Origin: Alphaproteobacteria bacterium
GTDB taxonomy: Bacteria; Pseudomonadota; Alphaproteobacteria; Ferrovibrionales; Ferrovibrionaceae
Direction: 5' to 3'
Length of the DNA: 64,000 nt
Assembly: GCA_017307375.1 (NCBI GenBank)
Contig: JAFKFH010000020.1
Span: 1 to 64,000 of the forward strand
This document shows, piece after piece, positions 2,097 to 55,960 of this stretch. The position numbers and the translations under genes are program-made. Within the stretch, counting starts at the first letter, position 1. Every line of letters begins with the position of its first letter. Below the pieces are notes generated by a model. That model was not told the origin of the DNA, searched no databases, and was given only the letters and a program-made list of their open reading frames with translations.

Positions 2097-2151
2097 CTCC
2101 GTCCCCCGACGATCAGTCGGCCGGACGATATCGCCGCGGTAATATGCGCCG

Positions 2152-2171: not shown

Positions 2172-2173
2172 TG

Positions 2174-2201
2174 TTGGAAAAAATTCTGCCTAGGCTATCG
2201 T
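2174..2201 (+). promoter_or_regulatory. Possible sigma70-type promoter of the two-component operon
   Basis: TTGGAA (2174-2179) and TATCGT (2196-2201) are separated by 16 bases, directly after the 20-bp palindrome. A transcript starting near 2208 fits the GTG start at 2258 of the response regulator and argues against the longer start at 2171. Confidence 0.4.
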
Positions 2202-2257
2202 CTCGCTGGCGGGTGCCGCTGTTCAAGGCGCCCCGCGACCCTGCCGAAAGCGAGACC

Positions 2258-3328: not shown

Positions 3329-3334
3329 CCCGGC

Positions 3335-31363: not shown

Positions 31364-32415
31364 CTGCCCTCCCTCGCATTCTGGATAATCTGGAGAAGTT
31401 CGCCGCCGATGGCGGCCAGCGGCAAGACCTGGTCGACGACACCGGCCGCGACGGCGGCCCCGGGCATGCCGTAGACGATCGAGCTGGCCTCGTCCTGCGC
31501 GATCACCCGGCCGCCGGTCCCGGCGGCGACCTTGAGGCCGGCAACGCCGTCCTGCCCCATGCCGGTGAGGATCACATGCGTCGCCGCAGCGCCGTACACC
31601 CGCCCCACCTGTTCGAAGAGGAACGTCGCCGACGGACGAAACCCGCCGATCGGCGCGGACCTGGACAAGGCGATGCGTCCCCGATCCAGCACACCGAGAT
31701 GGGCGTCGTCGGGCGCGACATAGACGGTATGGGACAGGATCGGTTCGCCCGCCACCGCCACCCTTACCTTCAGCGACGAGACCGTGTTGAGCCAGGTGAC
31801 CAAGCCGTCGACGAACCCCTTGCCGATATGCTGCACCACCAGGATCGGCGTCGGGAACGTCGCGGGAAGCCCCGACAGCAGCACCTGCAGCGCCGCGGGA
31901 CCGCCGGTCGAAGCCGCGATGGCGACGATCCGCTGATGCGGGCTGACGCCCGCCGCCGGCACCGCGGGCCGCGCCGGCAGTGCCGCCGCCGGCCAGTGCC
32001 GTACCACCTTGACCCCTGCCATCGCCCGCACGGTTGCCATCAGCCGGGCAGCGGCCGACTGCCTTTCGGGCGGCATCAGCCCGGCCAACCGCGGCACGAC
32101 GGCCAAGGCCCCGGCACGCAGCGCCAGGATCGACTGCTCGACCTGCCGCGGATCGCCTTCGTCGGAGACGATCACGACCGGCGTCGGCATCTCGCTCATG
32201 ATCGCCTTCGTGGTCTCGAAGCCACCGGCCGTCGGCAGATCGACGCCCACCACCAGGATGTCGGGGTTGAGCCGACGGGCCAGCCCCAGGACCTCGGTCG
32301 AACGCGTCGCCTCGCCGACCACTGCCAGGCCGGGATCGCCGCGCAGCGTCGCCACCAGCCCGTCGCGGTCGCGCAGCGAACTTTCGGCAACGACGATACG
32401 GATCACGCCGGTCAC
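31360..32415 (-). CDS. cheB: CheB methylesterase with degenerate receiver domain
   Basis: A 351-residue CheB. The C-terminal methylesterase is intact: Ser169 in AIAASTGGPAA, His196 in VVQHIGKG and Asp289 in LTGMGQDGVAGL. The N-terminal receiver is degenerate: the phospho-acceptor position is Gly57 (PDILVVGVDLP), the metal-binding acidic pair near AESS is reduced, and the lysine is Arg109 (VVPRLAG). Start is GTG, overlapping the cheA stop by 4 bases. The esterase would demethylate or deamidate the receptor of this operon, but without phosphorylation control by CheA. Confidence 0.93.
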   Translation of the reverse strand: MTGVIRIVVAESSLRDRDGLVATLRGDPGLAVVGEATRSTEVLGLARRLNPDILVVGVDLPTAGGFETTKAIMSEMPTPVVIVSDEGDPRQVEQSILALRAGALAVVPRLAGLMPPERQSAAARLMATVRAMAGVKVVRHWPAAALPARPAVPAAGVSPHQRIVAIAASTGGPAALQVLLSGLPATFPTPILVVQHIGKGFVDGLVTWLNTVSSLKVRVAVAGEPILSHTVYVAPDDAHLGVLDRGRIALSRSAPIGGFRPSATFLFEQVGRVYGAAATHVILTGMGQDGVAGLKVAAGTGGRVIAQDEASSIVYGMPGAAVAAGVVDQVLPLAAIGGELLQIIQNAREGR

Positions 32416-41276: not shown

Positions 41277-43079
41277 ATGCGGCGCACCCGCTCCTGGCAT
41301 GTCGACGCCCCGCCCGACCGGCTTTGGCGGGTGCTGGCCGACACGGCGCGTTTCAACGAGGCTTCGGGCCTCGGCAAATACCAGCTCGAGGAACTGCCGC
41401 AGGCCGATGGCAGCGTGCTGCGCATCGGACGATCCAGGATCATGGGTTTTGGCCTGGAATGGAACGAGCGTCCCTACGAATGGCTGGAAGGGTCGCATTT
41501 CCGGCAGACCCGCCTGTTCCGCAAGGGCCCGTTCAGCCGGTTCGGCATATCGGCCGAGCTGACCCCGGAGGCATCGGGCCGGACGCGCATCGACTATGTC
41601 CTGCATGGCGAACCGGCCAACATCTTCGGCCATGCGCTGGTCGCGCTGCGCCAGATCGACCGGGCGTTTCGCCACATGGGCATGCTGGTCGAAACCGCAT
41701 CCCGCCATGCCGAGGCGGGCGAACCGGGCCCGGCCCCGTTCGAGATGCCGACAGTCGAACTCGCGCCCGGGGGGCGCGAACGGCTGGAAGCTGCGCGCGG
41801 CCGCCTGGCCGCCGGTCCCTACGGCCATGGCCTCGCCGACCGCCTCGCGACGCTCATCGCCGGCGCACCGGATGTCGATGTCGAGCAGATCCGGCCGCTC
41901 AAGCTCGCCCGCGAGTGGGGTGTGTCGCGGCTGGCAGCGGTTGAACTGGCGCTTGCCGCAACCCGTGAAGGCATGCTGCGCCTGTCCTGGGATCTGCTGT
42001 GTCCGCGTTGCCGCGGCGCCAAACGATCGGTCGCCGCACTGGACCAGTTGCCGCGCGGCGCCCATTGTCCGTCGTGCAACATCGACTACGGCGCCGATTT
42101 CACCGAGAACGTCGAGCTGTCCTTCCGGCCGGCACCCTCGATCCGGCCGGTTCTGGCCGGCGGCTTCTGCATCGCCGGCCCGATGTCTACTCCGCATGTG
42201 GTGATGCAGCAGATCCTCGCCCCCGGCGAGACCCGCGAACTTGCGGCACCACTGCCCCCCGGCCGCTACCGGCTGCGCACCATCGATCCCGGCGAGACGG
42301 CGGAATTCGAACATGATGGCGGCGCCCTGCCCGCCTTCGTCGCCGACGCGTCCGGTGCCCGGCTGGACGCCGTGGGCCCGGCCATCCGTCTCGCCAATCG
42401 CGACGCGCGCGAACGCGTGCTGGTGCTGGAGCGGCGCGACTGGCGATCGGACGCGCTGACCGCCAAGGCGGCGACCGCGCTGCAGGCATTCCGCGACCTG
42501 TTCGCCGACCAGGTCCTGCGCCCCGACGAAGACGTGGCTATCGACAGCGTCGCGCTGATGTTCACCGACCTCGAGGGTTCGACCGCCCTCTACCAGCGCA
42601 TCGGCGACGGCGCGGCCTACAATCTGGTACGCGATCATTTCGCATATCTCGGGGAGGCGGTCAGGCGCCACGAGGGCACGTTGGTCAAGACCATCGGCGA
42701 TGCCGTGATGGCCGCCTTCGCCGATCCCGCCCAGGCGGTCGCCGCCGCCCTGTCGGTGCAACGCCATGTCGGCGAATTCAACGCCCGCCAGCAGGATGCG
42801 GCGATCCGCATCAAGACGGGCCTGCATGTCGGGCCCTGCATCGCCGTGACGATGAACGGCCGGCTCGACTATTTCGGCTCGGCGGTCAATCTCGCCGCCC
42901 GGCTGCAGGGCGAGAGCGGCGGCGGCGACGTCGTCATCAGCGAAGCGCTGGCCGCCGATCCGGCGGTGCGGCCGCTGCTGGCGCCGTTCAGGCTCAGCGA
43001 CGAACGCGCGCGGCTCAAAGGCTTCGCCGAACCGGTGCCCTTCCACCGGCTGACGCAGGATGCGCTGCTGGCCAATTGA
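41277..43079 (+). CDS. Class III adenylate cyclase with SRPBCC-like and DUF5939-type N-terminus
   Basis: A 600-residue multidomain protein. Residues ~1-140 resemble a START/SRPBCC lipid-binding fold (RSWHVDAPPDRLWRVLADTA); ~150-400 form a DUF5939-type region with a zinc-ribbon-like pair CPRC...CPSC (near 241 and 264); ~420-600 is a class III cyclase catalytic domain with VALMFTDLEGSTALYQRIGD, LVKTIGDAVMAAF and DYFGSAVNLAARLQ. Both metal aspartates and the transition-state Asn/Arg are present, so activity is likely. No transmembrane segment is seen. The N-terminal part may sense a lipid or small hydrophobic ligand (inference). Confidence 0.9.
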   Translation: MRRTRSWHVDAPPDRLWRVLADTARFNEASGLGKYQLEELPQADGSVLRIGRSRIMGFGLEWNERPYEWLEGSHFRQTRLFRKGPFSRFGISAELTPEASGRTRIDYVLHGEPANIFGHALVALRQIDRAFRHMGMLVETASRHAEAGEPGPAPFEMPTVELAPGGRERLEAARGRLAAGPYGHGLADRLATLIAGAPDVDVEQIRPLKLAREWGVSRLAAVELALAATREGMLRLSWDLLCPRCRGAKRSVAALDQLPRGAHCPSCNIDYGADFTENVELSFRPAPSIRPVLAGGFCIAGPMSTPHVVMQQILAPGETRELAAPLPPGRYRLRTIDPGETAEFEHDGGALPAFVADASGARLDAVGPAIRLANRDARERVLVLERRDWRSDALTAKAATALQAFRDLFADQVLRPDEDVAIDSVALMFTDLEGSTALYQRIGDGAAYNLVRDHFAYLGEAVRRHEGTLVKTIGDAVMAAFADPAQAVAAALSVQRHVGEFNARQQDAAIRIKTGLHVGPCIAVTMNGRLDYFGSAVNLAARLQGESGGGDVVISEALAADPAVRPLLAPFRLSDERARLKGFAEPVPFHRLTQDALLAN

Positions 43080-43113: not shown

Positions 43114-44124
43114 ATGACGATTCGCAGCGGCCCGTTCAATCTTCTCACCGACGTCCCCGGCATCAAGGTCGGCCATGCCGTCGACACCGACGTGCGTTCG
43201 GGCGTCACCGTCATCCTGCCCGACGACCCGGCGCTCGCCGGCGTCGACGTGCGTGGCGGCGGGCCCGGCACGCGCGAGACCGAATTGCTGCGCCCGACCT
43301 GCGCAGTCGATCGGATCGACGCGATCGTGCTGTCCGGCGGCTCGGCCTTCGGCCTCGACGCCGCATCGGGTGTTGCCAATTACCTCGCCTCGACCGGCCG
43401 CGGCTGGCCGGTGGTCGGCGGCATGCGGGTACCGATCGTGCCCTCAGCCATCCTGTTCGACCTGGCCAATGGGGGCGACAAGAACTGGGGCGAGGAACCG
43501 CCCTATCGCCGGCTCGGCCGCGAAGCGGTGATCGCGGCGGCCCATGGTGCCTTCCCGCTGGGCAATGTCGGGGCGGGCTACGGCGCGGCGGCCGGGCGGA
43601 TCAAGGGCGGGCTGGGCTCGGCCTCGGTGATCGACGACCAGACCGGCCTGGTGGTCGCGGCCCTCGTCGCCGCCAATCCGGTGGGCAGCGTCACACGGCC
43701 CGGCACCGGCCGATTCTGGGCGGCCGACCTCGAGCAGGACGGCGAGTTCGGCGGTTATCGCGAAGAAACGCCGCCCGGCGACATCGATCTCGACCTGCCC
43801 GCCGAGGGCCGCATCGGCGGCCATACCTCGATCGGCGTCGTCGTCACCAACCTCGCCATCGACAAGGCTTCGGCCGAACGTATCGCGATCATGGCCCAGG
43901 ACGGCTACGCCCGGGCGATTCGACCTGTTCATACGCCGATGGATGGCGATACGATCTTCGCCATGTCCACCGGACGGCTGAAACCGACCGTGCCGCTGCC
44001 GCTGGCCGTGGCCCGGGTCGGCAGCCTTGCCGCGGATTGCGTCGCCCGGGCGGTGGCGCGGGCCGTGCATGCAGCCGACAGCCTCGGCGGCCTGCCGAGC
44101 TGGCGATCACTGCACGCCGGGTGA
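43114..44124 (+). CDS. P1 family (S58/DmpA-like) peptidase
   Basis: A 336-residue enzyme of the DmpA/BapA Ntn-hydrolase-like family, which are self-cleaving aminopeptidases acting on small peptides including beta-peptides. Typical segments are DVPGIKVGHA, VVLSGGSAFGLDAASGV-type (IVLSGGSAFGLDAASG), GNVGAGYGAAAG and IGGHTSIGVVVTNLAID, which should contain the autoproteolysis site and nucleophile. ATG 43114 coincides with the family's usual N-terminus. Followed 58 bases later by an oligopeptide-type binding protein, suggesting linked peptide use. Confidence 0.93.
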   Translation: MTIRSGPFNLLTDVPGIKVGHAVDTDVRSGVTVILPDDPALAGVDVRGGGPGTRETELLRPTCAVDRIDAIVLSGGSAFGLDAASGVANYLASTGRGWPVVGGMRVPIVPSAILFDLANGGDKNWGEEPPYRRLGREAVIAAAHGAFPLGNVGAGYGAAAGRIKGGLGSASVIDDQTGLVVAALVAANPVGSVTRPGTGRFWAADLEQDGEFGGYREETPPGDIDLDLPAEGRIGGHTSIGVVVTNLAIDKASAERIAIMAQDGYARAIRPVHTPMDGDTIFAMSTGRLKPTVPLPLAVARVGSLAADCVARAVARAVHAADSLGGLPSWRSLHAG

Positions 44125-44182
44125 AACTCTCGGGGACTTCGCTCTGAACATCAGGACTTTTGGGGGAAAAGGAAAACACGTC

Positions 44183-45676
44183 ATGCGGAAATTCTGGTAT
44201 GCGGCACTCGCCGTGGCGGCACTTGCCGGCACGCCGCTGGCCGCCGATGCGCAGGCCAAGAAGGATGCGGTCGCACTCGGCATCGTGCTCGAGCCGCCGG
44301 TGCTCGACCCGACCGTCAATCCCGCCGCCGCGATCGGCGAGGTCGTTCACTACAACCTGTTCGAGACGCTGACCCGGATCCACGAGAACGGCACGGTCGG
44401 CCCGCTGCTGGCCGACAGCTGGACGCCCTCGGCCGACGGCAAGACCTGGACCTTCAAGCTGAAGTCCGGCGTCAAGTTCCACGATGGCTCGGCCTTCTCG
44501 TCGGCCGACGTCAAGTCGTCGTTCACCCGCTACGGCGCCGACGGCTCGACCAACAAGAACAAGGCCACCTTCTCCAACATGGAGAAGATCGAGACACCGG
44601 ACGCGCAAACCGTCGTCATCACCCTGAAGGCGACCGACGCCTATTTCCCGTTCCGCATCGGCGAGAACACCGCGGTCATCACCTCGGATAAGACCGCGGC
44701 CGACAATTCGACCAAGCCGGTCGGCACCGGCCCGTTCAAGTTCGACAGCTGGACCAAGGGCTCGTCGATCACGCTGGTCAAGGCCGACACCTATCGCGAC
44801 CCTGCGGCGATCAAGCTGAACAAGCTGACCTTCAAGGTCATCGCCGACCCGGCCGCGGCGGTTGCCGCGCTGCTGGCTGGCGACGTTGACGCTTTCCCGA
44901 CCATGGGCGCCTACGAGACCGTCGACCAGTTCAAGAAGGATGGCCGCTTCACCGTCACCGTCGGCTCGACCGAAGGCGAGACGCTGCTGTCGATCAACAA
45001 CAAGCGCAAGCCGTTCGACGACGTCCGCGTCCGCCGCGCGGTCTCCTACGCGCTTGATCGCCAGGGCATCATCGACGGCGCGATGTCGGGCTTCGGCATC
45101 CCGATCGGCAGCCACTTCCCGCCGCACAACCCGGCCTATGTCGACCTGACCAAGGTCTATGAATACAATCCCGACAAGGCCAAGGCCCTGCTGAAGGAAG
45201 CCGGCGCGGTCGGCACCGAAATCACCCTGCGCCTGCCGCCGCCGCCCTATGCCCGCCGCTCGGGCGAGATCATCGCGACGCTGCTGACCGATGTCGGGTT
45301 CAAGGTCAAGATCGAGAATCTGGAATGGGCCGCCTGGCTCGACCAGGTGTTCAAGAACCGCAATTTCGACATGACCATCATCAGCCATGTCGAACCCAAC
45401 GACATCAACATCTACTCGACCAAGGTCAAGCCGGGTTACTACTTCAACTACGAGAACCCGAAGTTCGAGGACCTGATCGCCAAGGCCGAGGCGACCGTCG
45501 ATCCGGAGGCGCGCAAGCCGCTGCTGCAGGATGCCCAGAAGATACTGGCCGAGGACGCGGTGAACGGCTTCCTGTTCGTGCTGCCGAAGGTCTCGATCTA
45601 CAAGAAGGGCCTGAAGGGCCTGTGGCAGAACGCGCCGATCTTCGTCAACGACATGACCGCGGTCTACTGGGAATAA
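44183..45676 (+). CDS. ABC transporter substrate-binding protein, family 5
   Basis: A 497-residue periplasmic protein with Sec signal peptide (MRKFWYAALAVAALAGTPLA, cleavage after ADA). Family SBP_bac_5 hallmarks are YNLFETLTRI, LADSWTPSADGKTWTFKLK, GVKFHDGSAFSSADV, VGTGPFKFDSW and VRRAVSYALDRQGII. Binds peptides, nickel or other small solutes in the Dpp/Opp class. No permease or ATPase genes accompany it. AAAAGGAAAA precedes the ATG. A strong terminator follows. Confidence 0.94.
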   Translation: MRKFWYAALAVAALAGTPLAADAQAKKDAVALGIVLEPPVLDPTVNPAAAIGEVVHYNLFETLTRIHENGTVGPLLADSWTPSADGKTWTFKLKSGVKFHDGSAFSSADVKSSFTRYGADGSTNKNKATFSNMEKIETPDAQTVVITLKATDAYFPFRIGENTAVITSDKTAADNSTKPVGTGPFKFDSWTKGSSITLVKADTYRDPAAIKLNKLTFKVIADPAAAVAALLAGDVDAFPTMGAYETVDQFKKDGRFTVTVGSTEGETLLSINNKRKPFDDVRVRRAVSYALDRQGIIDGAMSGFGIPIGSHFPPHNPAYVDLTKVYEYNPDKAKALLKEAGAVGTEITLRLPPPPYARRSGEIIATLLTDVGFKVKIENLEWAAWLDQVFKNRNFDMTIISHVEPNDINIYSTKVKPGYYFNYENPKFEDLIAKAEATVDPEARKPLLQDAQKILAEDAVNGFLFVLPKVSIYKKGLKGLWQNAPIFVNDMTAVYWE

Positions 45677-45701
45677 CCGGTCCCCGCGATCGGAACGATC
45701 G

Positions 45702-45731
45702 AAGGCCGGCGGTGTCCCCGCCGGCCTTTTT
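45702..45731 (+). terminator. Rho-independent terminator
   Basis: Perfect 11-bp stem AAGGCCGGCGG (45702-45712) with CCGCCGGCCTT (45718-45728), 5-base loop, then a T-run. It ends the solute-binding protein transcript; on the other strand its A-run/T-run symmetry could also serve dabA. Confidence 0.9.
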
Positions 45732-45734
45732 CGT

Positions 45735-48125
45735 TCAGGCCGCTTCCAGGACGGGCGGCGTCGTGGAGCCGTCGATCGCCTCCCATTCACTGCCGCGACG
45801 CCGTGCCATCCGCCCTTCGTCGTCGATGGCGACGAGGTGCATCCACCCGTTGTCGAACAGGTCGCGCAGCATCGTGTTGCGCAGGACGATGCCTGCAAGC
45901 GCCTCGCGCGGGGCTTCGACCAGCACGGTGAGCCGCAACGGCTGGTGCACCAGCCGCTCGCCGTCATGCACGGACTGCCGCGGCAGTCCGCCGCGCAACA
46001 CCCCGGCGTTGCCTTCGACGACACCGACGCCGCCGGTGACGTTGTGGATCAGCTTGTTGCCGGCCCCGAACATCGCCGGCGCCACCGACGAACCGTAGTA
46101 TTGCAGGCTGATCCAGCTTGCCACCACGACCGGGCCGGCCATCAACCCTTCCAGCCCGGCGAAGCCTTCGTCCTGGCGCCAGTCGTAGTCGTGAAGGAAG
46201 GCACGCCCGGCGAGGTTGCGCCCGGCGGTGCGCCGCCGCGGTGCGGCGATGAACAGCTGGCAGCCGGCCAGCCCCCATTCCGGCCGTACTTCGGCCCAGT
46301 CGCGCGCCCGCCGCGCCGCCTCGGCACCGCGCCGCGTGCCGGGCAGTCGGGCCTGCCGCTCGCCGCGCGCCAGGACGCCGGCCGCGTCGAGCCAGGCTTG
46401 CGCCTGCCGCAGATCGTCCTGATGGGCGGCCACATCGTGATCGCCGGCAAAGACCGTCACGACGTCGGTCACCGTGTCGTGCAGCGCGGCCAGGAACAGC
46501 GTATCTTCCGGGATCGCGATACCAAGCGCCGCAAGGCCGTGGCGCACCTGCCGGTCATTGAGCAGCCCCGCCAGCAGCCGGGCATTGACGTCGCCCGAAT
46601 AGCCGCCGCAGGCGCCACATTGCAGACCGCCGGCATGGGCGTTGTTGACCATGGCGGCGCCATGGCCGGCGACCACCACCAGCCGGGCGAAGCCGTCGGT
46701 CAGGGCCATCGACCGCAATGCGCCGGCGGCCAGCCCGACCCTGGCCCCGATCCCGCAGGCGGGATCGAGCCGCGGCGCCGGTTCGACGACACGCTTTCTG
46801 GCCGCGAGGCCGACGCCATCGCGCAGCAGGGCCACGGCATGCAGCGGCCCGCTGGCCTCGACGAAGGCGAAGGACGAGATCGCGGCAACCTTGAACCGGC
46901 CCCAGGCCCGCTTGGCCCGCGCGACGATCCGCGCGGTGCGGTCGGCCGTCTCGTCGCCCCGCCCGCCGGCCTGCGACGCCAGCGGCGGTGCCAGCAGCAC
47001 CGGCAGGCGTGGCTCGACCAGGTCGGAGGCAAAGCGCCGATGGCCGACCCCCAGGCCGAAGAAACCTGCGGTGCCGTGCGTCCTGATACCGGGATCGAGG
47101 CTTTCCAGTCCCCGCCGGAACACTTCCGACCGCACGTCGATGCAGAACGCGACCTGCAGCCGGGGCCGGGCGGCATCGGCCCGCCCGTCGTTACCGGTCG
47201 CCACCGGCGCAAGCCGGCGCAGCGCCGCGCGTTCGGCGGCATCCTGCAGGATCGCATCGACGAGGTCGTCCGGCGACGGCACCACGGGCCGGGCATAGGC
47301 AGCCAGCGCGATCCGCCAGTCCTCGGCGATACGCGGCGCAAACTGCCGCAGCAGCGCGCATTCCCAGGTCAGCCGGATCGCCAGCAGGTCCAGCGGGGTC
47401 CGGTCGGCGCCACCGGCAAGCCCGGCCTGCCAGTCGCGCCAGCGGGCCAGCTGGGCCCAGCCGCCCAGCGTCGCCATCAGTCGATGGAAGTACGCCTCCA
47501 GCCCGGCTTCCTCGACCGCGAGTTCGGCGACCGCTTCCGCCAGCGCCTCTTCGGCCCGGGCCGGCGCATGGCCGACCAGCCGTGCGAAGCCGGCCAGTCC
47601 CGCGATCTCCGGCGTCAGGTCCTGGGCCGCGGCCATCCGCCAGGCGGCATAGGCCCCGGTCTCCGTGCCCGCCGCCCACAGCGCCTGGCCGTCGTCGAAA
47701 TAGCTCGCCGCCCAATGGCCGATCCGTTCGGCGATCAGGCCGGGCCAGTCGATGCCCGAGGCCGCGGCGGCCAGATCGGCGATCGTCGGCAGCGGCCTGA
47801 TCTCGGGCCGCGCCGTGCGCATCGCCGCCTTCAGTTCGGCAAGCGATGCGGCCGGCCGGCCGGCCGGTGCGGCATCCAGCGCCGCCTGCAGATCGGCGTC
47901 GGTGATCTCTCCGGCCCGGTGGCGCTCGGCATACCAGTCGCGCGGCATCGTCAGCGGGATGCCGGCGGCCTGGCCGAGCCGGGCGGCGGCGGTGGCGAGG
48001 TCGTCGCCCGACTGGCCGAGGAAAGGGTTGACCGCGACGCTCGCGGCCAGCGGCCACAGCGGCGGGACGGCCTGGGCCGCGCCGGCGGCGGCGGCCAGGA
48101 TCGGTGCGTGATGGTCGAGTTGCAT
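45735..48125 (-). CDS. dabA: DabA, inorganic carbon transporter catalytic subunit
   Basis: A 796-residue DUF2309 protein. The beta-carbonic-anhydrase-like zinc site is recognisable: VAFCIDVRSEVF (Cys and Asp ligand pair) and GHGAAMVNNAHAGGLQCGAC (His and Cys). With the membrane subunit DabB it couples cation flow to hydration of CO2, accumulating bicarbonate in the cytoplasm, as shown for Halothiobacillus DAB complexes. ATG 48125 follows AAGGGAGTGACGATC. Located 22 bases after dabB. Confidence 0.95.
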   Translation of the reverse strand: MQLDHHAPILAAAAGAAQAVPPLWPLAASVAVNPFLGQSGDDLATAAARLGQAAGIPLTMPRDWYAERHRAGEITDADLQAALDAAPAGRPAASLAELKAAMRTARPEIRPLPTIADLAAAASGIDWPGLIAERIGHWAASYFDDGQALWAAGTETGAYAAWRMAAAQDLTPEIAGLAGFARLVGHAPARAEEALAEAVAELAVEEAGLEAYFHRLMATLGGWAQLARWRDWQAGLAGGADRTPLDLLAIRLTWECALLRQFAPRIAEDWRIALAAYARPVVPSPDDLVDAILQDAAERAALRRLAPVATGNDGRADAARPRLQVAFCIDVRSEVFRRGLESLDPGIRTHGTAGFFGLGVGHRRFASDLVEPRLPVLLAPPLASQAGGRGDETADRTARIVARAKRAWGRFKVAAISSFAFVEASGPLHAVALLRDGVGLAARKRVVEPAPRLDPACGIGARVGLAAGALRSMALTDGFARLVVVAGHGAAMVNNAHAGGLQCGACGGYSGDVNARLLAGLLNDRQVRHGLAALGIAIPEDTLFLAALHDTVTDVVTVFAGDHDVAAHQDDLRQAQAWLDAAGVLARGERQARLPGTRRGAEAARRARDWAEVRPEWGLAGCQLFIAAPRRRTAGRNLAGRAFLHDYDWRQDEGFAGLEGLMAGPVVVASWISLQYYGSSVAPAMFGAGNKLIHNVTGGVGVVEGNAGVLRGGLPRQSVHDGERLVHQPLRLTVLVEAPREALAGIVLRNTMLRDLFDNGWMHLVAIDDEGRMARRRGSEWEAIDGSTTPPVLEAA

Positions 48126-48147
48126 GATCGTCACTCCCTTGTCGCTT

Positions 48148-49716
48148 TCAGGCCTTCGAGGTCGACCAGTTGCCGAGCAGCCGGTCGATGGCGGCATTGA
48201 CGTAAAAACCGTTGGCCACGTGAACGCGGAGTGCCGCGGCCGCCGGATGCGACGCCCAGAGCGGCAGCAGCGCCTGGGTGACCGCGACGAAACCGAAGCT
48301 CGCCACCGCCAGCAGCATCAGGGTCCATTCCAGCCGGCCGGGGGCGGGCGTCGCCGGCAAGGTGCCGGCCGTCAGCCACTCGGCGATCGTCTGCAGGGCG
48401 AAGTAGCCGATCGTGGCCGCGATCGAGCGCATCGCGGTCCGGACGGTCAGCGCGCGCGGCGCGGCGTCGGCAAGACCCTGGGCCAGCAGATAGGCGACGC
48501 CGAAGACCAGGATCGCGCCGAGGGCGAGCGCCTGGGGCGACTTGTGGCCGAAGCCGAAGGCCAGGCCGAAGGCGGTGCCGATCGCCGCATAGATCGCCAG
48601 TGCGGCGACGAAGGCCCGACCGACCGCCGCCCCGTCCGGGATCGCCACCGGCCCCGGCCGCCGGATCGCCGCCACCTGTTCGACGGCCTGGCCCGAACCG
48701 AGGAAGGCGTGGGCCTTGTAGAGCGAATGGGCAACGATATGCAGCAGCGCCAGCGGGAAGAGCGCGAGGCCGCATTGCAGGATCATGAAACCCATCTGCG
48801 CCACGGTCGACCAGGCCAGGGCCGTCTTGATTGCCGGCTGGGTGAGCATGACGACGGCACCGAACAGTGCGGTCAGGCCGCCGATCATCGCCAGCACGGC
48901 AAGGATGCCGGGCGCGGCCAGCATCAGGTCGGCACAGCGGATCAGCAGGAAGCCGCCGGCATTGATCACACCGGCATGCAGCAGTGCCGAAACCGGCGTC
49001 GGCGCCTCCATCACCTCGGTCAGCCAGCCATGGGTCGGAAACTGCGCCGACTTAAGCAGGGCCGCGACCGCCAGCAGCCCGGCGGCGACGAGGGCCGTCG
49101 CCGGCACGTCGCCGGCCCGGGCCGCCGCATTGATCGCGGCGATGTCGGTGGTGCCGAAGACGATGGCAAGCAAGCCCGTCGCCGCCAGCAGCGCGACGGC
49201 GGCCATGGTCGAGAACAGCCGTTTCTTGCGGGCGGCCCGCCGCGCGGCGGGCCGCTCGGCATAGAAGACCAGCAGCCGGTCGAGGCACAGGCTCGCCGCG
49301 ATCCAGGCGGCGGCGAGCTGGACCAGATTGCCCGCCTGGACCACCAGCAGGATCGCGGCGATCACCGCACAGAGCCAAGCGGTGAACGCGCCCTGCCGCG
49401 GCTCGCCGTCCAGATAGCGCCGAGTATAGCGCACGACGATCCAGCCGACGAAGGTGACCAGCAGCAGCATCGTCACGCTGACGGCATCGATCCGCGCGGA
49501 CAGGCCGACGCCCGCCAGGCCGACCAGGCTGCTGGTCGACGGCCCCCTGGCGATCAGCAGCGCCAGGGTGCCAAGCGCGACGACCAGCGCCGCGAGGGCC
49601 GCGGCCTCGGCCACCTGCGGCACCAAGCGCGGCCGGCTGCCGCGTCGCAGGGCCCCGAAGGCAGCGGCGAGGAGAAGCGGCAGCGGTGCGGCAAGCGGCA
49701 ACAGATCTGACGGCAT
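48148..49716 (-). CDS. dabB: DabB, NuoL-like membrane subunit of the DAB complex
   Basis: A 522-residue membrane protein with about 13-14 hydrophobic segments, related to complex I/Mrp antiporter subunits. Conserved channel residues lie in LLKSAQFPTHGWLTEVMEAP and LLHAGVINAGGFLLIR, HIVAHSLYKAHAFL. Its immediate partner is dabA and no other nuo or mrp gene is nearby, so a DabAB assignment is firm. ATG 49716 chosen after CCGGGGGCCATC. Confidence 0.95.
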   Translation of the reverse strand: MPSDLLPLAAPLPLLLAAAFGALRRGSRPRLVPQVAEAAALAALVVALGTLALLIARGPSTSSLVGLAGVGLSARIDAVSVTMLLLVTFVGWIVVRYTRRYLDGEPRQGAFTAWLCAVIAAILLVVQAGNLVQLAAAWIAASLCLDRLLVFYAERPAARRAARKKRLFSTMAAVALLAATGLLAIVFGTTDIAAINAAARAGDVPATALVAAGLLAVAALLKSAQFPTHGWLTEVMEAPTPVSALLHAGVINAGGFLLIRCADLMLAAPGILAVLAMIGGLTALFGAVVMLTQPAIKTALAWSTVAQMGFMILQCGLALFPLALLHIVAHSLYKAHAFLGSGQAVEQVAAIRRPGPVAIPDGAAVGRAFVAALAIYAAIGTAFGLAFGFGHKSPQALALGAILVFGVAYLLAQGLADAAPRALTVRTAMRSIAATIGYFALQTIAEWLTAGTLPATPAPGRLEWTLMLLAVASFGFVAVTQALLPLWASHPAAAALRVHVANGFYVNAAIDRLLGNWSTSKA

Positions 49717-49773
49717 GATGGCCCCCGGTCGGGTTGAAATCGAACACGCCCCGGAGATAGCCCGCCCGCTGCC

Positions 49774-49815
49774 AGGATAAAAATTCATTGTTCTCGTCAA
49801 AACGTTTTATAAAAT
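49774..49815. promoter_or_regulatory. Overlapping divergent promoters dabBA / lysR
   Basis: Plus strand: TTGTTC (49788-49793) and TAAAAT (49810-49815), 16-base spacer, only 8 bases before the lysR ATG, so the transcript would be almost leaderless. Minus strand: TTGACG (complement of 49795-49800) and TATCCT (complement of 49774-49779), 15-base spacer, for dabBA. The palindrome AAAACGTTTT (49799-49808) lies between them. LysR binding here would control both directions. Confidence 0.5.
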
Positions 49816-49823
49816 CGAACGAT

Positions 49824-50705
49824 ATGAGCGCACTGAACTACAACCATCTCCGCTACTTCTGGGCCGTCGCCCACGACGGCAACCTGACGCGCGCGGCGGC
49901 ACAGCTGAACCTGACCCAGTCGGCCCTGTCGGTGCAGATCCGCAAGCTGGAGGAGCGGCTGGGCCATGCCCTGTTCGAGCGCCGCGGCCGCCAGTTGCAC
50001 CTGACCGAGGCCGGGCGCATCGCGCTCGATCATGCCGATGCCATCTTCGCCCTGGGCAGCGAACTCCTCGGCACGCTCGGCAATACCGGCGCGGCGCGGC
50101 GCATTCTCAGGGTCGGATCGCTCGCCACGCTGTCGCGCAATTTCCAGATGGCGTTCCTGCGGCCGCTGCTGGGCCGGGCGGATATCGAACTGGTGCTGCG
50201 CTCGGGCAGCACGGCCGAGCTGCTGCGCGCGCTCGAAACCCTCGGCCTCGATGTGGTGCTGCTGAACCAGGCGCCCTTGCGCGACACGGGCAGCGCCTTT
50301 GTCGCCCATCGCCTCGCCGAACAGCCGGTCAGCCTGGTCGGCACGCGCGCGCGGCTGAAGGGGCGCAAGCGCGACCTTGCCGACTGCCTGCGCGACCATC
50401 CGGTCATCCTGCCGACCGCCGACACCAGCGTCCGCACCGGCTTCGACGCGCTGGCCGACCGCCTGGGGATCCGCCCGCAGATCGCCGCCGAGGTCGAGGA
50501 CATGGCGATGATGCGTCTGCTGGCGCGCGAGGATGTCGGGCTTGCCGTGCTGCCGCCGATCGTGGTGCGTGACGAGATCGCGGCGGGCACGCTGGTCGAA
50601 GCCCACCAGTTGCCCGGCATTGCCGAGATGTTCTACGCCGTGACGATGGCGCGGCGCTTTCCCAATCCATTGCTGCGCCCGCTGCTGCATCCCGGCGTCG
50701 CTTGA
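49824..50705 (+). CDS. LysR-type regulator, probable regulator of dabBA
   Basis: A 293-residue LTTR. N-terminal HTH: LNYNHLRYFWAVAHDGNLTR and LNLTQSALSVQIRKLEERLG; C-terminal effector domain with LRVGSLATLSRNF and VGLAVLPPIVVRDEIAAG. The N-terminus resembles NhaR-type regulators. Divergent from dabBA with overlapping promoters; control of bicarbonate uptake is inferred from position. ATG 49824 is chosen; the in-frame TTG at 49788 lies inside the promoter. Confidence 0.92.
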   Translation: MSALNYNHLRYFWAVAHDGNLTRAAAQLNLTQSALSVQIRKLEERLGHALFERRGRQLHLTEAGRIALDHADAIFALGSELLGTLGNTGAARRILRVGSLATLSRNFQMAFLRPLLGRADIELVLRSGSTAELLRALETLGLDVVLLNQAPLRDTGSAFVAHRLAEQPVSLVGTRARLKGRKRDLADCLRDHPVILPTADTSVRTGFDALADRLGIRPQIAAEVEDMAMMRLLAREDVGLAVLPPIVVRDEIAAGTLVEAHQLPGIAEMFYAVTMARRFPNPLLRPLLHPGVA

Positions 50706-50769
50706 CCCTTGCCGCCGCGGCGGGCCATCCTGCCGGCCGCCCAGCGGTCAATTGCCCCGGAACCGGACG

Positions 50770-51615
50770 ATGTCGGATACAGCCTCGCTGCACCAGCGCC
50801 AGATCGACTACTGGAACGGCGAAGGTGCCAGCCATTGGGTGGAACGCCAGGCGCAGACCGACGCGATGCTGCAGCCGGTCACCGCGGCACTGCTGACCCG
50901 GGCCTCGGCCATGCCCGGCAACCACGTCCTCGATGTCGGCTGCGGCTGCGGCGATACGACATTGCGGCTGGCAGAGGCAGTCGGCCCGGCCGGCCGCGTC
51001 ACCGGCATCGACATCTCGGCACCGATGCTGGCGGTTGCCGCCGATCGGCTAAGGGGGTTCCCACAGGCTGGAACCTTGCTCGCCGATGCCGCGGCGCAGC
51101 CGCTGCCGGCAGCCGATCTCATCGTGTCGCGTTTCGGCGTGATGTTCTTCGGCGATCCCAAGGCCGCGTTCGCGAACTTGCGCAGGGCGCTGCGGCCGGG
51201 CGGTCGCATCGTCTTCGCCTGCTGGCGCCGCTTCGACGAGAATGTCTGGGCCAGGCTTGCGCTGATGGCGGCCTATGGCCATGTCCCCCGCCTGCCCAGA
51301 ATGGACCCGCGCGATCCCGGCCCGTTCGCTTTTGCCGATCCCGGCCATGTCGGCGAAATTCTCGACGCGGCCGGCTTCACCGGCGCGGCCGTCGATCCGG
51401 TCGACCTCGCGATCGCGCCGCTGGCCGGCGGCACGTTGGCCGAGACGGCGACGCAACTGCTGGAAATCGGCCCGGCAAGCCGGGCCGTCGCAGGCCAGCC
51501 GCCGGAGACGGTCGCAGCTGTCGCCCGCGACATCGAAAAGGCGCTGGAACCCTATCAGGGTGTCGACGGCATCAAGCTGCCGGCAGCCATCTGGATTGTC
51601 GAAGCCCGCGCCTGA
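50770..51615 (+). CDS. Class I SAM-dependent methyltransferase
   Basis: A 281-residue methyltransferase. Motif I is HVLDVGCGCGDTTLRLAEAV, motif II region RVTGIDIS, and motif III-like LRRALRPGGRIVFACW. N-terminal RQIDYWNGEGASHWV is common in small-molecule methyltransferases of the type 11/25 group. Substrate unknown. The stop codon is immediately adjacent (no gap) to the stop of the convergent TetR gene. Confidence 0.9.
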   Translation: MSDTASLHQRQIDYWNGEGASHWVERQAQTDAMLQPVTAALLTRASAMPGNHVLDVGCGCGDTTLRLAEAVGPAGRVTGIDISAPMLAVAADRLRGFPQAGTLLADAAAQPLPAADLIVSRFGVMFFGDPKAAFANLRRALRPGGRIVFACWRRFDENVWARLALMAAYGHVPRLPRMDPRDPGPFAFADPGHVGEILDAAGFTGAAVDPVDLAIAPLAGGTLAETATQLLEIGPASRAVAGQPPETVAAVARDIEKALEPYQGVDGIKLPAAIWIVEARA

Positions 51616-52170
51616 TCAGCCGATCAGCGCCGCGCGCGCATCCGCGAGAATCCGGTCCGACCGGGTCGGGTCCTCGACGATCCGCGCCAAGGTCAGCGCA
51701 CCGACCATCGTCGACAGCGCCGATTGCGCCGCCGCCTCGCCCTTGCCCTGCGCCGCCTCGATCAGCTTGACCATCCGGTCCATCCGGGTTGCCGCCGCCT
51801 GCCGGACGGTCGCGGGCTGACGGGCAAGATCGGCGCCCAGCGCGGCATAGCAACAGCCCTGCTCGCGCGCATCGCGATGCTGGCGGCTGAGATAGCTGCG
51901 CACCAAGGTGGGGAAACGCTGTTCGGCCGGCACGGCCATCACCTGGTCGCGCAATCGCTCGAACGTCTGGTCGAGCGCGGACGCCATCGCTTCCTCGACC
52001 AGTGCGTCCTTGGACTTGAAATGGGCGTAGAACCCGCCATGGGTCAGGCCGACGCCCTTCATGATGTCGACAAGCCCGATCCCGTCGACGCCATGGCCGC
52101 GAAAGGCGGTCGCCGCCTCGTCGACGATGCGGCGATGGGTCTGCTGCTTGTGTTCCGCGGTATAGCGCAT
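51616..52170 (-). CDS. TetR family repressor
   Basis: A 184-residue TetR protein. HTH: RRIVDEAATAFRGHGVDGIG, then GLTHGGFYAHFKSKDALVEE; the C-terminal domain has a Cys pair (REQGCCYAALGADLAR) often seen in redox- or electrophile-sensing relatives. ATG 52170 is used; GTG 52173 is one codon upstream. An ATGAT-N4-ATCAT operator-like repeat lies just upstream, suggesting autorepression. The gene it regulates besides itself is not evident. Confidence 0.92.
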   Translation of the reverse strand: MRYTAEHKQQTHRRIVDEAATAFRGHGVDGIGLVDIMKGVGLTHGGFYAHFKSKDALVEEAMASALDQTFERLRDQVMAVPAEQRFPTLVRSYLSRQHRDAREQGCCYAALGADLARQPATVRQAAATRMDRMVKLIEAAQGKGEAAAQSALSTMVGALTLARIVEDPTRSDRILADARAALIG

Positions 52171-52190
52171 CACCGACCCCTGGAATTCAC

Positions 52191-52204
52191 ATGATAAACA
52201 TCAT
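52191..52204. promoter_or_regulatory. TetR operator candidate ATGATAAACATCAT
   Basis: Perfect 5-base arms (ATGAT/ATCAT) around 4 bases, 21 bases upstream of the TetR start codon and downstream of TTGACG on the minus strand. Size and place fit autoregulatory TetR operators. Confidence 0.6.
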
Positions 52205-52242
52205 TTAAATAGGTCGCCGCGTCAAGTCCACAAGCTTGGGCT

Positions 52243-55200
52243 TCAGACCACGCCCTCCATCGCAGCACAGAAGGCGTGCACCGCCTCGGTGACGCCCGAC
52301 AGCCGCTCCTGGCCCAAATCGACGTCGCCCTGCGCCAGCGCCGCCTCGACCGCGGCGGCGGCATCGCCGACCGCCGTCGCCCCGACGGCGCGCGCCGCGG
52401 CAACCAGCGACCGGGCCTGTTCCTGGGCGCCACCAAAGTCGGCGGCCCCGAACGACATTTCCAGCATTTCCAGCTGATCGGGCAAGGCTGCGGCAAACTC
52501 CGCCAGGAACGCGCGCGCCGCCGCGGTAAAGCCACCGAAGCTCTCGGTCAGGCGACCGGTATCGAACAACTCGGGCTGGAACGCCGGCAGCGGTGCCGGC
52601 GGCGCGGTTTCCCTATCGGCCTCCGAGACGACCGGGCTTCGGCGCAAGCCATCGGCCGCAGGCAGCAAACGAGCGACCAGCGCGGCAAGTCGCACGGCAT
52701 CGAGCGGCTTGGCCAGCCAGTCGTCCAAGCCGGCGGCAAGACAGGCCGCACGCGTCGCGGGCGTCACGTCGGTCGTCAGCCCGATCACCGGCAGGTGGCG
52801 GCCTGCGGTTTCCTGGGCGTGGATCGCCGTGGCCAATGCCAGGCCATCGATCGCCGGCATGTGCAGGTCGGCCAGCACGAGCCCGAAACCCGGCTCGGCC
52901 AGCGCGGCCAGCGCCGCCCTGCCGCCATCGGCCAGGACATGGGCATAGCCGAGACGGCCAAGCATCCGGCCGATCAGCTGTCGATTGACCGGATTGTCGT
53001 CGGCCACCAGGATCGCCGCGTCGGCGGCCCGGGCTTCGTCGAGCGGCGGCGGGGCAAAGCCGCCCGGCCCGCCGCCGGCCGGCGCACGGCCGAGCGCTGC
53101 GGCGATGGTCGACCATAGGCGGCTGCGACGGATCGGATAGTCGAGGGTGGCCGCCAGCCGTTGCCGCACCGACGGCTTCAGCAAGGCAAGCTGCCCCTGC
53201 GCGCCCGCGACGATGATCGGCCTGCCGGCCAGCTTGTCGTCGCGCGCCAGCTTTTCCAGCAGCGCCTCGACCTCGCCCGGCGCCGGACCGAGACAGACCA
53301 GGACGAGATCGAGTTCGGCCGAGGCCAGAACCTTTGGCGCATAGCGATCGGCGGTCAGCCACAGCGGCTCCTCGATCCCGGCGGCGTAGAGCTGACCGAC
53401 CAGCGCGTCGCGCCGCCAGCCATCGGCACCGAGGATGGCCAGCCGGACATCGGCGATCTCGGGCACGGGGGGCGATGCGACGGCGGTGCCCGGCAGCACC
53501 AGTTCGACGGTGAAGGTCGCCCCTTCACCCGGCACCGATTCGCATGCGATCGTGCCGCCCATCAGTTCGACCAGCCGGCGGGCCAGCGTCAGGCCGAGGC
53601 CGCCGTCGACGGGCGCGGTACCCGGTCCGTCCAATGGCCGGAACAACCGTTCGATCTGATCCTCGGTCAGGCCGACGCCGCTGTCCGATACGTCGAGGCG
53701 CAGGGTTGCCGCCCCATCGCGCCGACGGGCACCGGACAACTTGACCAGCACGCCGCCTTCGTCGGTGAACTTCACCGCGTTGCCGGCGAGGGCGAGCACG
53801 ATCTGCCGCAGCCTTGCCGGATCGCCGATGACCGTTTCGGGCAGACGCGGATCGAGATCCACGACAAGCTCGATGCCGCGATCGTCGGCCAGCGGCGCCA
53901 GCGCGGCACCCGCGGCCTCGGCAATGGCGGGCAAGGAAACCGGCCGGGCATCGAGGCTGAGTTCGCCGGCCTCGATCCGGGCGATATCGAGCACGTTGTC
54001 GACGGTGCCGAGCAGTGCATCGGCGGTCTGGCGGATGACGACGGCCTGGGCGCGCCCGTCATCGTCGAGATCGGCTTCGGCAAGCACCTCGGCGATGCCG
54101 GCCAAACTCGCCAGCGACGGACGCAGGCCACGATCGATGACCGCGAGGATGTCCGAACGCCCCTCGCCGGCCGCTTCGACCTGGTTCCGGGCAGCAGCGA
54201 GCGCCGCATTGGCTGCCGCGAGATCGGCCAGGGCCTGCGCCGCCTCGCGCCGGGCGGCAGCGAGAGCAGTCGCCTGCTGATGGCGCTCGGCCGCATCGAG
54301 CCAGACACCCGACAGCAACGTCGCCCCGTCGCCGAGGCGCCGCGGCGTCGCCCGCAGGCCGATCCAGCGCTCGCCGTCCGGATGGCGGTCGCGGAATTCG
54401 AGATCGAGCGGCTTCAGCGCCGCCGCCGCCTCGGCGATGGCCGCATCGAGACCGGCACGATCGGCGGGATGGATCGGTTCCATGGCCTGGCCCGAGGTCA
54501 GCGCGGCCGGATCGATGCCGCGCAGCGCCCGTGCCGCGCCGGCGACGAACTGGTAGCGGCGCCGGCCGTCGGCCTCGATGCGCATTTGGAAGACGGCACC
54601 GGGGACGGCCTCGGTCAGGTCGGCGAGCTGATTGTAGAGCCGGTCGGTCTCGGCATGGGCCTGCGCCACCGCTGCCTCGGCGTCCTTGCGCAACGAGATG
54701 TCGCGCATGACGAAGGCGACCCGCTCCAGGCTGCCGAAGCGCAGGAAGCGCGCGACCGCCTCCACCGCCACCGCCGAGCCATCCTTCCGGGTCACGCGCC
54801 CTTCATAAGGTTGCGGATCGGCAATGCCGGCGATGGCCTGCCATTGGGCCCGCCACCCATCGGGGTCGAGGCCGGCGATGTCATGCACGGTCATCTGGGC
54901 CAGTTCGTCGGCCTGATAACCCATCAGCCGGCGATAAGCCTGGTTGGCATAGGCAATGGTGCCGTCCTCGGCGACCCAGAGGATCGCCTCGACCGCCTGG
55001 TCCAGCGCAAACTGGCTCATCGCCAGCCGATCGGCCTGCTCCTGGACCAGGGCGCCCTGCGCCTTGAACCGCGCCAGGGCCTGAGCCAGTTCGCCGACCT
55101 CGTCCTGCCGATCCTGGTCGGGTACGGCCATGTCGCGGCCAGCCGCCACCCCGCGGGTCGCCGCGGCCAGCCGGGCCAGCGGCGCCACAACCTGACGGCG

Positions 55201-55809
55201 AACGATCCACAATGCCGCCATCAGCGCGACCAGCGCCGCGCCGCCGACGGCAACCAGCCGCACCGCCGCCTGGCGGATTTCCTCGTTGGCGGCGACGAGG
55301 CCGGCCGCCGCCGCGCGGCGCTCGGCGGCGCCGAGCCCGGCGAGATCCTGCGCCAGCGGCGCCAAAGCCTGGGTCAGGCGGTCGTCCACCATCGCCGTGA
55401 GCGCGTCGCGATCATTGGTCCCCAGCGCGGCCAGCAGGCCCTGCGCCACCTCGTCCGCTGTCGCCAGCCGTGCCGCGACGGCGTCGATCAATGCCGCGTC
55501 GGTCACCCCCTGTCGCTCGGCCCGGTAGCGCAACCACAGCGGCTTGGCCTGGTCGAGCGCCCCCTGGACGCGGCTTGCGCCTTCGGCCACGCCGAGCCGG
55601 CCATCCCGGACCGCCCGGGCGGTCTCGCCCACGGCCAGCGTGTAGATGTCGCCGAGCGCCGCCAGTTGCAGCGGCGCGGCGGCATCGCGCTCGATCCCGG
55701 CGAGGCGCTGGCGAAGGTCGAGGAAACCATGGGCGGCGATCCCCGCCAGCGCGAACAGCGCCAGCGCGATCAGGCCGAACAGGAGGGAAAGGCGGCGGTT
55801 GATGGTCAT
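52243..55809 (-). CDS. Large hybrid sensor kinase lacking both phospho-histidines
   Basis: An 1188-residue inner-membrane protein. TM1 ~9-28, periplasmic helical sensor, TM2 ~183-203, HAMP-like segment (APLARLAAATRGVAAGRD), PAS (~260-385), second PAS-like fold (~400-515), coiled coil, DHp (~550-615), HATPase (~640-775), receiver-like domain (~790-900), receiver (~920-1040) and Hpt-like domain (~1075-1170). In the DHp the expected His is Arg560 (ILAVIDRGLRPSLASLAG); in the Hpt it is Arg1133 (QARSLVAAARAVG); the first receiver has Cys839 at the Asp position. The HATPase (GNAVKFTDEGG, DSGVGLTEDQ, GGLGLTLARRLVELMGG) and second receiver (LVADDNPVNR, Asp981 in LVLADLHMP, LAKPLD) look intact. It probably cannot autophosphorylate in the usual way. 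Confidence 0.9.
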   Translation of the reverse strand: MTINRRLSLLFGLIALALFALAGIAAHGFLDLRQRLAGIERDAAAPLQLAALGDIYTLAVGETARAVRDGRLGVAEGASRVQGALDQAKPLWLRYRAERQGVTDAALIDAVAARLATADEVAQGLLAALGTNDRDALTAMVDDRLTQALAPLAQDLAGLGAAERRAAAAGLVAANEEIRQAAVRLVAVGGAALVALMAALWIVRRQVVAPLARLAAATRGVAAGRDMAVPDQDRQDEVGELAQALARFKAQGALVQEQADRLAMSQFALDQAVEAILWVAEDGTIAYANQAYRRLMGYQADELAQMTVHDIAGLDPDGWRAQWQAIAGIADPQPYEGRVTRKDGSAVAVEAVARFLRFGSLERVAFVMRDISLRKDAEAAVAQAHAETDRLYNQLADLTEAVPGAVFQMRIEADGRRRYQFVAGAARALRGIDPAALTSGQAMEPIHPADRAGLDAAIAEAAAALKPLDLEFRDRHPDGERWIGLRATPRRLGDGATLLSGVWLDAAERHQQATALAAARREAAQALADLAAANAALAAARNQVEAAGEGRSDILAVIDRGLRPSLASLAGIAEVLAEADLDDDGRAQAVVIRQTADALLGTVDNVLDIARIEAGELSLDARPVSLPAIAEAAGAALAPLADDRGIELVVDLDPRLPETVIGDPARLRQIVLALAGNAVKFTDEGGVLVKLSGARRRDGAATLRLDVSDSGVGLTEDQIERLFRPLDGPGTAPVDGGLGLTLARRLVELMGGTIACESVPGEGATFTVELVLPGTAVASPPVPEIADVRLAILGADGWRRDALVGQLYAAGIEEPLWLTADRYAPKVLASAELDLVLVCLGPAPGEVEALLEKLARDDKLAGRPIIVAGAQGQLALLKPSVRQRLAATLDYPIRRSRLWSTIAAALGRAPAGGGPGGFAPPPLDEARAADAAILVADDNPVNRQLIGRMLGRLGYAHVLADGGRAALAALAEPGFGLVLADLHMPAIDGLALATAIHAQETAGRHLPVIGLTTDVTPATRAACLAAGLDDWLAKPLDAVRLAALVARLLPAADGLRRSPVVSEADRETAPPAPLPAFQPELFDTGRLTESFGGFTAAARAFLAEFAAALPDQLEMLEMSFGAADFGGAQEQARSLVAAARAVGATAVGDAAAAVEAALAQGDVDLGQERLSGVTEAVHAFCAAMEGVV

Positions 55810-55857
55810 GAGGAAATTACGAACTTTCGTCTGCTACTGGGAGAGCGTGAAACGCGT

Positions 55858-55903
55858 CGCGGCCGCGGCCGGGCCCCCGAATCGAGGGACGGCCGCGGCC
55901 GCG
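55858..55903. repeat. GC-rich 14-bp inverted repeat
   Basis: CGCGGCCGCGGCCG (55858-55871) and its exact complement CGGCCGCGGCCGCG (55890-55903) flank an 18-base loop. It lies between the OmpA-type lipoprotein and hybrid kinase genes, both on the minus strand. It may end the first transcript or structure the leader of the second; no T-run follows. Confidence 0.6.
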
Positions 55904-55960
55904 ATGATAGCGACGGCGGATGAAGGCGTCAGTGCAAACGGCAGAAAACCGCCGCCTGCG

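Follow-up and report, generated by a model that had tools for sequence, protein, structure and literature searches.

Organization of the locus

The window analyzed here is a stretch of 64,000 nucleotides of an alphaproteobacterium of the family Ferrovibrionaceae (GenBank assembly GCA_017307375.1, contig JAFKFH010000020.1, positions 1 to 64,000). Its minus strand carries an open reading frame (ORF) without internal stops, whose product, referred to below as the window kinase, has the layout of a hybrid histidine kinase and reads arginine at both of its phospho-histidine positions. The gene and its parts are as follows (TM, transmembrane segment).

52243 to 55809, minus strand: pseudo-hybrid histidine kinase of 1188 amino acids, ordered TM1, periplasmic part, TM2, HAMP, PAS, PAS, DHp, CA, pseudo-REC1, REC2, Hpt
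55066 to 55788, minus strand: membrane sensor, with TM1 at about residues 8 to 30, a periplasmic part, TM2 at about residues 185 to 203 (both from hydropathy peaks) and HAMP at residues 203 to 248 (25.9 bits)
54325 to 55011, minus strand: two PAS domains, residues 267 to 375 and 422 to 495
53965 to 54168, minus strand: DHp domain with the H-box IDRGLRPSL
54130 to 54132, minus strand: CGT codon of Arg560, at the phospho-histidine position
53485 to 53964, minus strand: CA (HATPase) domain, assessed by column counts against 30 relatives
53080 to 53457, minus strand: REC1 pseudo-receiver, with Cys839 at the Asp position
52675 to 53019, minus strand: REC2 receiver, with D937, D938, D981, T1012 and K1034 present (Response_reg, 74.1 bits)
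52246 to 52542, minus strand: Hpt domain with R1133, V1136 and A1137, predicted as a helical bundle

Translation of the ORF placed Arg560, Cys839, Asp981 and Arg1133 where a first-pass annotation, made from the DNA letters, had located them. Pfam recognized HAMP, PAS, PAS, HisKA, HATPase_c, Response_reg and Hpt, in that order, and did not detect REC1. The HisKA score was just below the cut-off in the protein search (24.5 against 26.9 bits) and reached 29.1 bits in the genome search, while Hpt scored 19.8 bits against a cut-off of 24.6. With HATPase_c at 75.2 bits, the DHp-CA fold of a histidine kinase is recognizable.

Loss of both phospho-histidines

Columns were counted in an alignment of 30 relatives, hand-picked for a complete DHp-to-Hpt stretch from the best 70 of 148 nonredundant ORFs; near-duplicates (e.g., L014 and L016) and rows without an aligned Hpt (e.g., L123) were omitted. 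The best 70 themselves formed a wider alignment. At position 560, where the window kinase has Arg, His was present in 30/30 relatives and in 70/70 rows of the wider alignment. At position 1133, again Arg in the window, His was present in 30/30 relatives and in all 42 rows of the wider alignment having a residue there, the other 28 showing a gap. Since His occupies both sites in all 30 relatives, both losses belong to the window lineage.

The neighbors of the two histidines have changed as well. H-box columns 559, 560, 561 and 564 read S, H, E and T in 30/30 relatives and D, R, G and P in the window kinase. In the Hpt, columns 1133, 1136 and 1137 (H in 30/30, K in 27/30 and G in 30/30 relatives) read R, V and A, so that the motif HxLKG is replaced by RSLVA. 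The R560 codon (CGT) is one step from a His codon, and that of R1133 (CGG) is two. Of the residues expected in a canonical tripartite hybrid kinase, those of the receiver are present and the DHp and Hpt histidines are missing.

A phospho-His at a shifted position, which the first-pass annotation had named as evidence against its reading, is ruled out for the DHp, given that residues 511 to 956 contain no His at all. The only His of the Hpt domain, H1178, lies outside the motif, in the last helix of the structural model.

His is reported missing from 0.9% of bacterial HisKA domains (722/76,471) and from 0.9% of Hpt domains (90/10,312) (PMC12632262); for both missing within one protein we found no figure in the literature. 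Among publications on pseudo-histidine kinases and on kinases without the conserved His, no hybrid kinase lacking both histidines was recognized by title or abstract, which does not prove that none has been published. The host genome (7.5 Mb) contains 95 HisKA stretches at an E value of 0.001 or better. All 95 were read, and the phosphoacceptor was His in 93, Tyr in one and Arg in one, the last being the window kinase. The Tyr-bearing kinase, on contig C13 with a YELRTPL box, is separate from the window kinase and is presumably DivL-like.

Changes in the CA domain

The loss extends to the catalytic domain. The first Asn of the N-box (position 673) and the Phe of the F-box (position 726), each present in 30/30 relatives, are Ala and Leu in the window kinase, and the ATP-lid stretch F723-G739 has 17 residues, four fewer than the 21 found in 30/30 relatives. 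Thus, the statement of the first-pass annotation that the HATPase keeps all motifs does not hold; the annotation had seen the His losses correctly and had missed those at H+1, H+4, the N-box, the F-box and the lid. The nucleotide-fold anchors N677, K680, D709, G711, G713, G736 and G739 were kept in the window kinase, as in 30/30 relatives.

In CpxA, the Glu that follows the phospho-His is reported to touch both this His and the first N-box Asn (pair E249-N356), and the N356Y variant to be kinase deficient (PMC3904827). In HisKA kinases, H+1 is ascribed to the kinase reaction and H+4 to the phosphatase reaction (PMC8292422). Given this pairing and the phosphatase role of H+4, joint loss is what abandoned His chemistry predicts. 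Read in this way, R560, G561, P564, A673, L726 and the short lid mark the DHp-CA functions that the protein lacks, and it is almost certainly no longer a histidine kinase.

The kept anchors would suit an active ATPase, or a CA domain that phosphorylates a partner His in a heterodimer or another protein, the last of these having been suggested by the first-pass annotation. However, the window kinase, in contrast to all 30 relatives, has neither the first N-box Asn nor the F-box Phe and has a lid shorter by four residues, and in CpxA, replacing the corresponding Asn makes the protein kinase deficient (PMC3904827). As the N-box Asn is absent, together with the base at H+1 and a portion of the lid, a kinase acting on another protein is disfavored, and we regard this explanation as very improbable.

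The two receivers

The two receivers differ in what they have kept. Column 839 of REC1 carries Asp in 10/30 relatives and nine other residues among the remaining 20, and the acid pair, the Asp and the Lys occur together in none of the 30, REC1 being degenerate in all of them. Therefore, Cys839, correctly placed by the first-pass annotation, is ruled out as part of a coordinated loss and does not represent a loss event of its own. In REC2, D938, D981 and K1034 were kept in the window kinase and in 30/30 relatives, with T1012 present in 29/30 of the latter, and D937 stands for the Glu of the relatives. Acid pair, acceptor Asp, Thr and Lys are all present, as had been noted. A pseudo-receiver between the CA domain and the true receiver is, judged by sequence, the arrangement of the Caulobacter hybrid kinase ShkA. 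In the region of the cyclic di-GMP (c-di-GMP) site (Y338) and the DDR linker motif of ShkA, the pairwise alignment with the window kinase was gapped.

The missing partner gene and the genomic context

Directly downstream of the kinase gene lies the following regulator gene:

51616 to 52173, minus strand: TetR-type regulator

In 26/30 relatives, a CheY-like response regulator gene lies at most 1.5 kb downstream of the kinase, the match starting within 50 bases in 23 of the 26; none was found within 1.5 kb downstream for L015, L019, L129 and L166. For the window kinase, a search of 6 kb in both directions turned up no CheY-like regulator gene. The pair of a hybrid kinase with a pseudo-REC1 and a single-domain CheY-like regulator seen in the 26 relatives (e.g., L127 at 3456 to 3878 and L128 at 3664 to 4062) constitutes a conserved two-gene relay in alphaproteobacteria.

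Elsewhere in the host genome, the four best matches to the CheY-like regulator sit at the paralogous kinases of contigs C28, C41, C38 and C9, separated from the C38 kinase by one neighboring gene; after these four the score falls from 89 to 73 bits. All four paralogues have both histidines. Taken together, the His-phosphate relay has been dismantled in the window lineage: the DHp His, the base Glu, the phosphatase Thr, the CA Asn, the His/Lys/Gly patch of the Hpt and the neighboring partner gene are gone.

The Lys at position 1136 was lost in L015, L019 and L129, i.e., in three of the four relatives without an adjacent regulator (3/3 versus 1/27, p 0.001, post hoc), which fits erosion of the Hpt after loss of the neighbor, with the same post hoc reservation. 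These three relatives keep the Hpt His (AHAAAGAA in L129 at 2960 to 4954, AHSAAGAA in L015 at 1429 to 3468 and SHSLAGAA in L019 at 1513 to 3528).

Upstream of the kinase, an OmpA-like gene has a match in 18/18 genomes of the family, its own included. In 3/8 relatives examined, this gene and the solute-binding-protein orthologue (44027 to 45676 in the window) are about 80 bp apart (between match ends); for the other five, no such neighbor was seen in the stretch taken around the OmpA-like gene. In the window, about 10 kb (45677 to 55960) separate the two genes, and this block contains a DabA gene, a proton-antiporter-type gene that we take to be DabB-like, LysR, methyltransferase and TetR genes, and the window kinase. 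None of 11 relatives carries the kinase near the OmpA-like gene, at a distance of up to about 1.5 kb; the L291 kinase match (41% over 179 amino acids), some 4.7 kb away from that gene, was not treated as a positional orthologue. The block looks like an insertion in the window lineage or a loss in the other genus.

Two further observations were made in the window. From the reading of translations, a chemotaxis-like cluster lies at 29585 to 34652, comprising a CheA-like kinase that bears an Hpt (AHSLKGAA) and is fused to a receiver, together with a CheB-like protein and a hybrid kinase whose box reads AHDFNN. At 41277 to 43079, an adenylate/guanylate cyclase domain protein with DUF5939 is encoded.

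Homologues of the window kinase

The nearest homologues of the window kinase are two kinases of the same genome, the C28 copy (40% identity over residues 371 to 1172) and the C41 copy (41% over residues 499 to 1174), and further homologues occur in other alphaproteobacteria. The family and order searches covered the same 18 genomes, and the class sample (385) and the phylum sample (200) were searched at an E value of 1e-90 or better. A scan of the genome contigs (among the matches listed), of the class and phylum samples and of plasmids returned only homologues, with identities of at most 43%; the best place in the plasmid search had 36.8% identity over 46% of the query. By sequence, the gene appears to descend from an alphaproteobacterial ShkA-like hybrid kinase normally encoded beside a CheY-like response regulator. 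The first-pass annotation had held that orthologues with His at the two sites would speak for recent decay; His is indeed found in all 30 homologues, and no orthologue was found.

A tree was built from the first 59 relatives minus 18 Mesorhizobium-type rows (24 identifiers named), leaving 41 relatives plus the window protein (42 rows). No starred set contained the window protein, whose residue make-up differs from the rest, and the tree does not single out the C28 or the C41 copy as the closest.

Decay or maintenance

In this tree, the window protein has an end branch of 2.88 changes per column, compared with a median of 0.31, and its frame is still open. The near-invariant sites kept in the window kinase were 16/42 in the DHp, 40/56 in the CA, 37/50 in REC2, 7/13 in the Hpt and 5/6 in REC1; the lowest relative in a leave-one-out count (n = 30) kept fractions of 0.90, 0.90, 0.80, 0.54 and 0.60, respectively. 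The loss was concentrated in the DHp: at non-hydrophobic near-invariant sites, 9/25 were kept there, versus 28/39 in the CA (Fisher p 0.009) and 25/32 in REC2 (p 0.002).

The hydrophobic core behaved differently from what neutral drift predicts. The window kinase differs from the C28 copy in 52/110 core columns, and 44 of these 52 remain I, L, V, M or F, whereas neutral drift keeps 35 to 45% hydrophobic, the observed share being reached in 0/400 runs in each of six settings. For the DHp core alone, 11/14 changes are still hydrophobic, and 5 and 7 of 400 neutral runs were as high. When drift of the present gene was simulated up to 60% DHp change, with indels left out of the count, stop-free runs numbered 0/60 at 70% GC and 1/60 at 80% GC. 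Codon-position GC was ordinary in every domain.

These data bear on two rival explanations. The genome is a draft of 41 contigs, and an assembly or sequencing error might be invoked; with more than 10 positions affected across the DHp, CA and Hpt, in frame and with ordinary codon-position GC, such an error is scarcely credible. The other is decay: deprived of its partner or no longer of use, the kinase would be drifting toward a pseudogene that has not yet acquired a stop. Several findings suit this decay: the loss is lineage specific with no orthologue found, it is in excess in the DHp, the partner gene is missing, the gene lies inside the block of about 10 kb, which 3/8 relatives examined do not have between the flanking genes, and in some simulated runs the frame stayed open through a small amount of drift without selection. 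Nevertheless, the gene has undergone far more change than neutral drift permits and still has no stop, the core changes are conservative, codon-position GC is ordinary, the REC2 acceptor residues are kept, and the Arg1133 codon is two changes from any His codon. Plain decay therefore looks unlikely.

The open frame on a long branch, the conservative core, the codon-position GC and a loss weighted toward the DHp together indicate a fold kept under selection with its active surfaces released, and we consider it quite likely that selection has maintained the gene. This is in agreement with the selected change favored by the first-pass annotation, now supported by the branch length, the codon composition, the hydrophobic core and the greater loss of active-site residues in the DHp than in the CA or REC2.

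Modeling pointed in the same direction. An AlphaFold2 model of residues 530 to 1188, computed with 31 sequences, had a mean predicted local distance difference test score (pLDDT) of 82.8 and a predicted TM score (pTM) of 0.58. The Hpt was modeled as a helical bundle, with blocks at pLDDT 89 to 95 over most of its length and R1133 within a helix, and the model matched the folds of ShkA, RetS, DivL, HK853 and GacS. The cytoplasmic fold and REC2 are kept according to the sequence, and the model predicts the same.

A probable kept pseudo-histidine kinase with Asp981 as a possible input

The reading that accounts best for these results, and the one that we think probable, is a selectively kept pseudo-histidine kinase that serves as a sensor and dimer scaffold and whose sole phosphorylatable site is Asp981. 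The membrane and PAS sensor would determine which conformation the dead DHp-CA bundle adopts, and the bundle would act by binding, paired with or docked onto a response regulator or a paralogue that still works; another Hpt or kinase would switch that binding through Asp981, and ATP, if bound at all, would have a structural role. This binding mechanism with Asp981 as its input is put forward tentatively, on the analogy of DivL, RetS and ChrS (see below). In a related and more doubtful version, the protein would be an inverted hybrid kinase, its relay dead at both histidine ends. A foreign Hpt or kinase would deliver phosphate to Asp981, and the output would be the dead body of sensor, DHp, CA and Hpt, gating or reporting another pathway by binding.

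Alternatively, Asp981 might serve as a phosphate sink or reservoir, as the first-pass annotation had also proposed alongside a putative ATP-driven conformational switch, taking phosphate from the Hpt of a paralogue (C28, C41, C38 or C9), hydrolyzing it and lowering the output of that pathway, with the sensor irrelevant or tuning the rate. The intact REC2 residues and the four same-genome paralogues with both histidines are consistent with such a role, and the authors of a study on a Caulobacter hybrid kinase that lacks the DHp His have proposed phosphorylation of its Asp by an Hpt, or a heterodimer (PMC11481889). A sink leaves the conservative change of the DHp, CA and Hpt cores unexplained, however, and it seems to us improbable.

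Several points weigh against a kept pseudo-histidine kinase. An orthologue was sought in 17 other genomes of the family and order and in the class and phylum samples (384 and 199 other genomes, respectively; the sets overlap), and none was found, so that selection since the loss is inferred and not measurable as dN/dS. Some of the difference from the paralogue arose before the loss, at a time when the protein still worked as a kinase and its core would have been conserved anyway. Drift to 20% DHp change left 3/60 and 8/60 runs stop-free, and hence the stop test does not exclude a short, recent decay. The 7/13 sites kept in the Hpt equal the lowest relative (0.54), and retention in the Hpt and REC1 alone is not outside the family range. 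At hydrophobic positions, change in the DHp (13/22) was not above that in the CA (14/40, p 0.11) or REC2 (12/27, p 0.39), and the DHp blocks of the model had a pLDDT of 55 to 82.

Comparison with known systems

The best solved match in a single stretch from DHp to REC2 was ShkA (PDB 6QRJ), with an E value of 2.6e-40 over query residues 26 to 512; as a fold, it matched the model with a Z score of 26.5 over 419 residues and a root mean square deviation of 11.0. The order DHp-CA-pseudoREC1-REC2 is common to both proteins. The pseudo-receiver of ShkA is reported to bind c-di-GMP (PMC7010744). Unlike the window kinase, ShkA is described as an active kinase whose architecture ends at REC2, without an Hpt.

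Other known systems illustrate how a histidine kinase may act by binding. RetS of Pseudomonas aeruginosa (PDB 6DK7 and 7N0E; fold Z score of 22.4 over 218 residues) is a hybrid kinase reported to stop the autophosphorylation of GacS via a DHp heterodimer, its own relay residues having been found dispensable in some work and not fully required in other work (PMC4866733). The partner of RetS is known; for the window kinase, the four paralogues with both histidines are candidate heterodimer partners. The ChrS pseudokinase of Corynebacterium glutamicum, catalytically dead, forms heterodimers with a working paralogue; it arose from a laboratory frameshift in the CA domain, and the available text of that report mentions neither a receiver nor an Hpt (PMC9491836).

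A further parallel is CCNA_03265 (CC3162) of Caulobacter, reported as a hybrid kinase without the DHp His and with the receiver Asp kept, and identified through insertions when hyperadhesive mutants were screened for (PMC11481889). Its authors propose phosphorylation of the Asp by an Hpt, a heterodimer or a substitute His (H151) (PMC11481889). It differs from the window kinase in that this nearby H151 is considered as a substitute, and the account of it available to us mentions no loss of an Hpt His.

DivL, an alphaproteobacterial pseudokinase (PDB 4Q20; fold Z score of 21.9 over 224 residues), has Tyr, or Ala in one species, in place of the DHp His, keeps the fold, binds DivK~P and controls CckA (PMC4211667). 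It is described as built of PAS domains and one DHp-CA module and as keeping the H, N, G1, F and G2 motifs except for the His, unlike the window kinase, which has Arg at the His site and has lost the N-box, the F-box and the H-box neighbors. What DivL is reported to lack is thus the phospho-His only, whereas the window kinase is without the whole His-phosphate path (two acceptors, catalytic neighbors and, judged by its relatives, the regulator gene) and keeps receiver and fold. The window kinase is an unusually complete, lineage-specific pseudo-hybrid histidine kinase, and, with four paralogues bearing both histidines in the same genome, it offers a naturally occurring case in which to ask what such a kinase can do without its chemistry.

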